Source: Chloroflexota bacterium | Lineage (GTDB): Bacteria > Chloroflexota > UBA6077 > JACCZL01 | DNA length: 39,909 nt | Assembly (NCBI GenBank): GCA_020850535.1 | Contig: JADZEM010000046.1 | Span: forward strand, 1 to 39,909 | Direction: 5' to 3' | Shown here: positions 1 to 25,505 of the stretch, in pieces | Layout of the letters: each line of letters starts with the position of its first letter | How positions within the stretch are numbered: position 1 is the stretch's first letter | Position numbers and translations under genes: made by a program | The notes under the pieces: model-generated | Seen by the model: the letters and a program-made list of their open reading frames with translations, nothing else | Databases searched by the model: none | Told to the model about the DNA's origin: nothing

Positions 1-178
1 CGTCGTGCCGCCGCGTCGGGGCTTGAAAGCCCCGCCTACCATCCTGCAGTCGCTGCGCGACGCTCCAGTCGCACCAGTGCCGGCCGTTCCCGACGGTGTG
101 ACTGTAGGCGGGGACTTCAGTCCCCGACCGCCCGTTCCATGATGCTTCGGGGACACCAATGAACATGCGATCGCCCTG
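1..178 (+). mobile_element. MITE-like palindromic element, copy A (left end outside window)
   Basis: Member of a four-copy family in this window. By alignment with the copy at 2436-2652, the window starts about 22 bp inside the element. The right terminal inverted repeat, aacatgcgatcgccctg, is at 162-178. Two long inner arms (15-39 and 104-128) are complementary to each other, and each also folds into its own hairpin. Relative to the 2436-2652 copy it lacks about 17 bp just before the second arm. No coding capacity, so non-autonomous. Confidence 0.8.
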
Positions 179-188
179 ATGCTGCTAC

Positions 189-391
189 CGGTGCAATCGT
201 ATGTTGAGCGCGTCGTGCGGCGTCGTCGGGGCTTGAAAGCCCCGCCTACGATCCTGCAGTCGCTGCGCGACGCTCCAGTCGCACCAGTGCCGGCCGTTCC
301 CGGCGGCCGTCGCGCAGCGACTGAATGACGGTAGGCGGGGACTTCAGTCCCCGACGCGGCGGCATGACGACATCAACATGCGGTCGCCCTG
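189..391 (+). mobile_element. MITE-like palindromic element, copy B
   Basis: Same family and orientation as copy A, beginning 10 bp after it ends. The degenerate left terminal repeat is at 189-205 (12 of 17 positions match the consensus cagggcgattgcatgtt) and the right one at 375-391 (15 of 17). The inner arms are GTCGGGGCTTGAAAGCCCC at about 227-245 and its partner ending near 354. Its right subterminal part is the complement of the left ends of copies A and C, so B is the most fully palindromic copy. No clear target duplication is seen. It lies just downstream of the methyltransferase/reductase gene. Confidence 0.75.
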
Positions 392-2417: not shown

Positions 2418-2435
2418 GTATTCACCTTCAGCGCC

Positions 2436-2652
2436 CAGGGCGCTTGCATGTTGGGTGTGTCGTGCCGCCGCGTCGGGGCTTGAAAGCCCCGCCTACGATC
2501 CTGCAGTCGCTGCGCGACGCGCCAGTCGCACCAGTGCCGGCCGTTCCCGACGGCCGTCGCGCAGCGACGGAATGACTGTAGGCGGGGGTTTCAACCCCCG
2601 CCTGCGCGCCTCGTCACGCTTCGGGAACACCAGCGAACATGCAATCGCCCTG
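2436..2652 (+). mobile_element. MITE-like palindromic element, copy C, complete, with 10-bp target duplication
   Basis: A 217-bp element. Left terminal repeat cagggcgcttgcatgtt is at 2436-2452 and right repeat aacatgcaatcgccctg at 2636-2652; they are complementary with one mismatch. The 10-bp sequence cttcagcgcc directly flanks both ends (2426-2435 and 2653-2662), as expected for a target-site duplication. The inside holds paired arms and nested hairpins. No coding capacity. It sits between the start of the methyltransferase/reductase gene and the end of the SH3 gene. Confidence 0.9.
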
Positions 2653-2669
2653 CTTCAGCGCCGCCCAGG

Positions 2670-25416: not shown

Positions 25417-25505
25417 CGGGGCGATTGCATGTTCATTGGTGTTCCTGAAACGCCGTCGAACGAGCGGTCGGAGCTGCACGACGAGCCCATCATGCAATCG
25501 TCCTG
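25417..25505 (-). mobile_element. Short MITE-like element, copy D, with 10-bp target duplication
   Basis: 89 bp. Terminal repeats are at 25417-25432 plus one base (cggggcgattgcatgtt, 25417-25433 region; 16 of 17 to consensus) and 25489-25505 (atcatgcaatcgtcctg, 15 of 17). Flanks cgtggcaccg (25407-25416) and cgtggtaccg (25506-25515) match at 9 of 10. Its left interior is the reverse complement of the right subterminal part of copies A and C, so it is inverted and internally deleted. Sits 18 bp upstream of the next start codon. Confidence 0.8.

Follow-up and report, generated by a model that had tools for sequence, protein, structure and literature searches.

What kind of element lies at positions 2436 to 2652 of the window (the whole 39,909-nucleotide stretch of DNA analysed here, which is contig C46 of a host draft assembly of 7.65 Mb in 227 contigs), and which enzyme could have moved it? 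A preliminary description of this locus had proposed a non-autonomous transposable element of 217 bp, with ends complementary at 16 of 17 positions and without coding capacity, and all of these features were borne out when the window was re-read. The top strand of the element starts with CAGGGCGCTTGCATGTT and finishes with AACATGCAATCGCCCTG, and no credible coding capacity was found within the 217 bp, the overlapping open reading frames either extending into the flanks or being at most 57 aa long. The perfect 10-bp duplication that was said to abut both ends is likewise confirmed. The features of this copy are as follows.

2436..2652, plus strand: complete MITE monomer of 217 bp; ends complementary at 16/17 positions; one of 89 copies of exactly 217 bp in the 1.89 Mb sampled
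2436..2452, plus strand: left terminal inverted repeat CAGGGCGCTTGCATGTT; one mismatch to the family end
2636..2652, minus strand: right terminal inverted repeat CAGGGCGATTGCATGTT; exact family end, identical to the left end of an ISAs1 element in relative G001
2426..2435, no strand: left copy of the 10-bp target duplication, CTTCAGCGCC; perfect match to the right copy
2653..2662, no strand: right copy of the 10-bp target duplication, CTTCAGCGCC; perfect match to the left copy
2474..2600, no strand: core forming a long imperfect palindrome, its two REP-like arms (GTAGGCGGGG..) flanking GTCGCTGCGCGACG/CGTCGCGCAGCGAC; self-complementary match 77% identical, fold z-score -8

The element as a whole is a single long imperfect palindrome, with a fold z-score of about -8 for DNA and RNA alike. 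Its end motif is matched six times in the window when up to three mismatches are permitted, against 0.05 matches expected by chance. Three further copies had been claimed for the window, and these were found at 1-178, 189-391 and 25417-25505. The two copies within 1-391 are both present; what had been missed is that together they make up a head-to-tail dimer, of a type that moves as a unit.

1..178, plus strand: leading unit of a MITE dimer of family A, truncated where the contig starts (profile model of the element and array census)
179..188, no strand: 10-bp dimer spacer ATGCTGCTAC; in the genome it borders a MITE right end 55 times exactly and 8 times with one mismatch
189..391, plus strand: second dimer unit with decayed inner left end CGGTGCAATCGTATGTT (array census and inner-end diagnostic sites)
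25417..25505, minus strand: 89-bp derivative without the palindromic core; flanks agree at 9/10 positions (CGTGGCACCG/CGTGGTACCG)

The element belongs to an abundant family with 10-bp target duplications

Across the host genome the end motif (up to three mismatches) was matched 399 times in the forward and 399 times in the reverse orientation, compared with 3 and 5 matches for a reversed control pattern, and on this basis we estimate that there are roughly 400 copies, making up about 1% of the genome. A census with a profile model of the element, covering 1.89 Mb of the host genome that were partly targeted at known copies, identified 223 copies or fragments, 141 of which are complete and 89 exactly 217 bp long. 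The preliminary description had named genome copies without a flanking duplication as evidence that would count against transposition. At 67 complete solitary copies the two flanking 10-mers are identical in 31 cases and differ at one, two or three positions in 11, 6 and 4 cases, respectively, so that 42/67 carry a duplication with at most one mismatch (1% in shuffled pairings); about 15 of the 67 have no recognisable duplication. It can also be seen that matching of the flanks at these copies spans exactly 10 positions and drops beyond them.

Element-free loci that still carry two copies of the 10-mer had been named in the same way. The available relatives belong to other genera, and for this reason we used empty sites that are paralogous rather than orthologous, the flanks being joined in a script and aligned to uninterrupted paralogues. 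Such sites could be read where a copy lies within a member of another repeat family. The sequence TCCACACGCT in L194 corresponds to TCCACTCGCT in L056 (also L220), and a further pair is formed by ACTGTCTACC in L080 and ACTTCCTACC in L052 (also L230); in both pairs the empty site has a single 10-mer. Thus the paralogous sites carry one copy, not two, and the designation as a non-autonomous transposable element is supported both by these single-copy empty sites and by the duplications at most complete solitary copies. At 217 bp the element falls within the span of about 50-600 bp typical of MITEs, and it is gene-less, with inverted ends, many dispersed copies, a target duplication, empty sites and ends in common with an autonomous element, these being the features by which a MITE is recognised. 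We conclude that it is a MITE, representing a new and very abundant family of a known kind. Copies of the same MITE were not found in 60 relatives, the nearest of which are other genera of the same family; these gave only fragments of 24-56 bp with E values of about 1e-3.

By a codon-usage test, 61 of 62 duplication-bearing sites lie outside coding sequence, as compared with 35% for positions taken at random. The sole coding exception is at L060:17108-17325, where the MITE interrupts a frame that, from reading its flanks by eye (..TTDFVQHKEAP / APGGPMADQFYRRFDQ..), we take to be phosphodiesterase-like. MITEs have also inserted into another abundant family of intergenic repeats (GGAAGATCCCTCGACT..CGCTCGGGATGACGG), members of which lie at L203:18425-18605, L270:18889-19052, L082:470-659 and many other places. 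Contig ends lie inside MITE copies in 54 of the 122 cases examined, which explains much of the fragmentation of the assembly.

Two variant arrangements were also seen. A 108-bp single-hairpin form is represented by 11 census copies (for example L072:5853-5960 and L072:16825-16932), several with 10-bp duplications of their own, and is possibly either the ancestor of the 217-bp form or a deletion product from it. At L058:16105-16402 a 71-bp and a 217-bp copy form an inverted pair, and the 217-bp member is flanked by the 10-mers GCGCTCGCCT / AGGTGAGCGC; a local inversion is suggested because these are inverted rather than direct.

The ends of the MITE are those of ISAs1-family elements

It had been proposed that the 10-bp duplication would narrow the search for the mobilising enzyme, and this was right, as it leads to the ISAs1 family. 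A full-length insertion sequence with the ends of the MITE, the search for which had also been suggested, was obtained from a relative of the same bacterial family, G001, in which a 1256-bp element at C70:1658-2913 has the ends CAGGGCGATTGCATGTT and CAGGGCGATTGCATGAT, matching the MITE end at 17/17 and 16/17 positions; the host itself yielded truncated remnants only. The product of the G001 element matches the NCBIfam model transpos_ISAs1 (NF033564) with 396.7 bits (cut-off 70) and covers the whole model. The element is without a flanking duplication of its own, and its reading frame appears to be shifted near the C-terminus. The order is represented by 15 other genomes, and of these G001 alone has the exact 17-bp end, once.

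The host remnants of ISAs1 type (PF13808; NF033564) are two in number, with left ends CAGGGGGATTGCATAAC and CAGGGCGATTGTATAGT that are identical to the MITE end at 13-14 of 17 bases, and the search of the host assembly, which is fragmented at repeats, brought up no intact transposase of this family. The end consensus of 56 ISAs1 loci from many phyla is CAGGGCAATCGCATTT, of the CAGGGC..GCAT type, and 34 of these loci have a perfect 10-bp duplication, a count obtained with a boundary search that favoured boundaries having a duplication. An ISAs1 copy in relative G004, of the same order, has the same ends and duplication as in Chloroflexi bacterium UBA6077.

Because the MITE end has the ISAs1 pattern and also the exact form seen in the nearest ISAs1 element, the family of the mobiliser can be named. 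We infer from these sequences that the transposase of this IS lineage moved the MITE in trans, and that it has since been lost from the host genome or lies in an unassembled part of it. When the MITE was compared by eye with the G001 element and with the host remnants, no similarity was evident beyond the terminal bases. Since the ends alone are in common, mobilisation by ISAs1 is claimed here and not an origin of the MITE by internal deletion of a known ISAs1 copy. The CAGGGC..GCAT-type ends and the 10-bp duplication are thus what the MITE has in common with ISAs1-family insertion sequences (NCBIfam NF033564; Pfam PF13808 and PF01609), whereas it differs from them in having no transposase gene and in its length of 217 bp, as against about 1.2-1.3 kb.

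Head-to-tail dimers and their spacers

Arrays of two to three copies were seen 45 times, and in 43 of these the copies are arranged head-to-tail. The spacers are mostly 10 bp long and recurrent, being ATGCTGCTAC in lineage A, AGTCACGAAC in lineage B and AGCGAGGGGG in lineage C; for lineage A, 55 junctions with the exact spacer and 8 differing by one base were counted genome-wide next to MITE right ends. One dimer lineage thus has about 60 copies and several are smaller, and in addition there is a fused 412-bp form, lineage D, which has no spacer and in which the inner end has been deleted. At the outer edges of 14 of 24 interior arrays there are 10-bp duplications with no more than one mismatch, all of them different, and in none of the 24 is the outer duplication equal to the array's own spacer. 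The recurrence of the spacers, taken with the locus-specific outer duplications, points to few dimer origins, and the duplications show that dimers then transposed as units. The empty site of a dimer is clean, GGTGGGAAGT in L075 aligning with GATGGGAAAT in L082 at 92% identity with one 10-mer.

The inner left ends of dimers have on average 3.1 mismatches and the outer left ends 0.5 (p 8e-10), while the inner right ends show no clear difference. The inner left end of lineage A has substitutions at positions 4, 7, 10 and 12, sites that separate units 1 and 2; a decayed inner end reads CAGTGCAATCGTATGTT. A few apparent singles also have the damaged inner end seen in family A. A dimer that has lost its inner end would be more likely to move as a whole. 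As to how dimers are born, a unit together with one flanking repeat may have been duplicated, by slippage, by unequal exchange between the 10-bp repeats or as a by-product of transposition, which would explain both the 10-bp spacers and the head-to-tail order. On balance we favour the view that inner-end loss makes the head-to-tail dimer a new, larger non-autonomous transposon lineage, in which the fossil 10-bp spacer serves as a heritable barcode. One dimer, at L053:12033-12483, has a spacer of 17 bp instead of the usual 10 bp and a perfect outer 10-bp duplication.

A model for mobilisation, and alternatives to it

The explanation that we hold with high confidence, on sequence grounds, is that a gene-less MITE has been moved through its ends by an ISAs1-type transposase, and that its dimers move as units. 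The transposase would recognise the ends of about 17 bp (CAGGGCGATTGCATGTT) and join them to a staggered cut, repair of which would give the 10-bp target duplication. Tandem dimers (unit, 10 bp, unit, in head-to-tail order) would have formed a few times, the simplest route being duplication of a unit with one flanking repeat. They then moved as single units via their outer ends, probably helped by an inner left end that had decayed or been deleted.

The palindromic core could be taken to place the family instead among REP/REPIN-type palindromes, which a RAYT (Y1 tyrosine) transposase would spread; its GTAG-tagged arms would then be the functional part and its ends incidental. As in REP/REPIN and GTAG-tagged palindromes there is a palindromic core with inverted GTAG-tagged arms, in the form of two hairpins, and GTAG repeats have been reported from Chloroflexi (PMC3733652). 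The arms of the MITE differ from these in that they are not free in the genome, the GTAGGCGGGG hairpins being essentially confined to the MITE (1/306 outside it), and the 10-bp duplications left behind are kept by the 108-bp and other shortened copies without the GTAG core; nothing here points to the involvement of a RAYT. To our knowledge, RAYT-type movement leaves no target duplication. With GTAG hairpins that are not free-standing and 10-bp duplications that are present, we regard a REP/REPIN origin as extremely unlikely and reject it. The very stable fold (z about -8) and the intergenic placement would also suit a structural or regulatory RNA, or a terminator repeat, kept for host function, with flanking repeats arising by coincidence or recombination; to this we assign a negligible chance, since insertion is needed to account for the exact 10-bp duplications and for empty sites with a single copy. 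Base-pair covariation was the same as in shuffled controls and a search of Rfam gave no match, so that RNA function was rejected; no sign of another host function was seen either.

That the mobiliser belongs to some other transposase family making duplications of about 10 bp, with the similarity of the ends due to chance, would be in keeping with a host assembly that has no intact ISAs1 gene and with a MITE interior that is unrelated to ISAs1 elements. Against this, the full 17-bp end is found on an ISAs1 element of a member of the host's bacterial family, the order's other genomes having it at no further place, the host remnants agree with it at 13-14/17 bases, and the CAGGGC..GCAT end motif with a 10-bp duplication is common to ISAs1 elements across phyla, and we consider such a coincidence most unlikely. 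The dimers, for their part, might each have formed in place by a second MITE inserting beside the first; the spacers of founders are mostly exactly 10 bp, as adjacent insertion would also give. It is nevertheless very unlikely that this accounts for them, given that one spacer recurs at many loci having different outer duplications, that spacer and outer duplication differ in all 24 interior arrays, that 43/45 arrays are head-to-tail and that the empty site of the dimer is clean.

Comparison with known MITEs and tandem elements

Tandem IS dimers are known for IS21 and IS30, and the term 'tandem dimer' appears in a review of the IS6/IS26 family (PMC7986276). The dimers described here likewise consist of two abutted copies with a short spacer, and are unlike those of IS6/IS26, IS21 and IS30 in that they form an inherited and amplified mobile unit of a non-autonomous element, in which the inner end has decayed. 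Among bacterial MITEs, MITEPye1 is mobilised by IS1182 (PMC11578231) and TIMEs are mobilised by Tn3 transposases (PMC4133298). Like these, the present family is short, gene-less, intergenic, capable of foldback and of high copy number, with IS-like terminal repeats and flanking duplications; it is distinguished by its ISAs1-type ends, its several hundred copies and its recurrent head-to-tail dimers moving as units. We found neither an ISAs1-linked MITE nor a description of mobile tandem dimers of bacterial MITEs in open-access papers, and the text of a 2024 review of prokaryotic MITEs (PMC10969869) mentions neither ISAs1 nor tandem copies.

A very abundant MITE family gains a named mobiliser family, ISAs1, and its dimer lineage is unusual. 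The dimer spacers act as natural barcodes, by which unit-wise transposition is readable from one genome and the formation and spread of tandem MITEs become testable. If true, inner-end loss would be a route by which bacterial MITEs change their architecture and gain new mobile units, a route of which the open-access papers searched contain no description.

Age and mosaicism of the copies

The preliminary description had called the transposition recent. The perfect duplication of the window copy is in agreement with this, but the family is not clearly recent: nearest neighbours among the 89 full-length copies differ at at least 5 of 217 positions, so that no very recent burst is visible, and identical copies may have been lost in the assembly because of the many contig ends that fall in copies.

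Between 53 and 80% of site pairs in the 89 full-length copies show all four allele combinations, indicating mosaic copies that have probably arisen by gene conversion or recombination, or in part by assembly or strain mixing. A tree test for separate clades of the unit-1 and unit-2 sequences of dimers gave no such clades, as is explained by the pervasive mosaicism. When aligned, the 89 full-length copies resolve into a small number of block haplotypes combined in mosaic fashion, which implies that dispersed copies often exchange sequence or that the assembly has mixed them.
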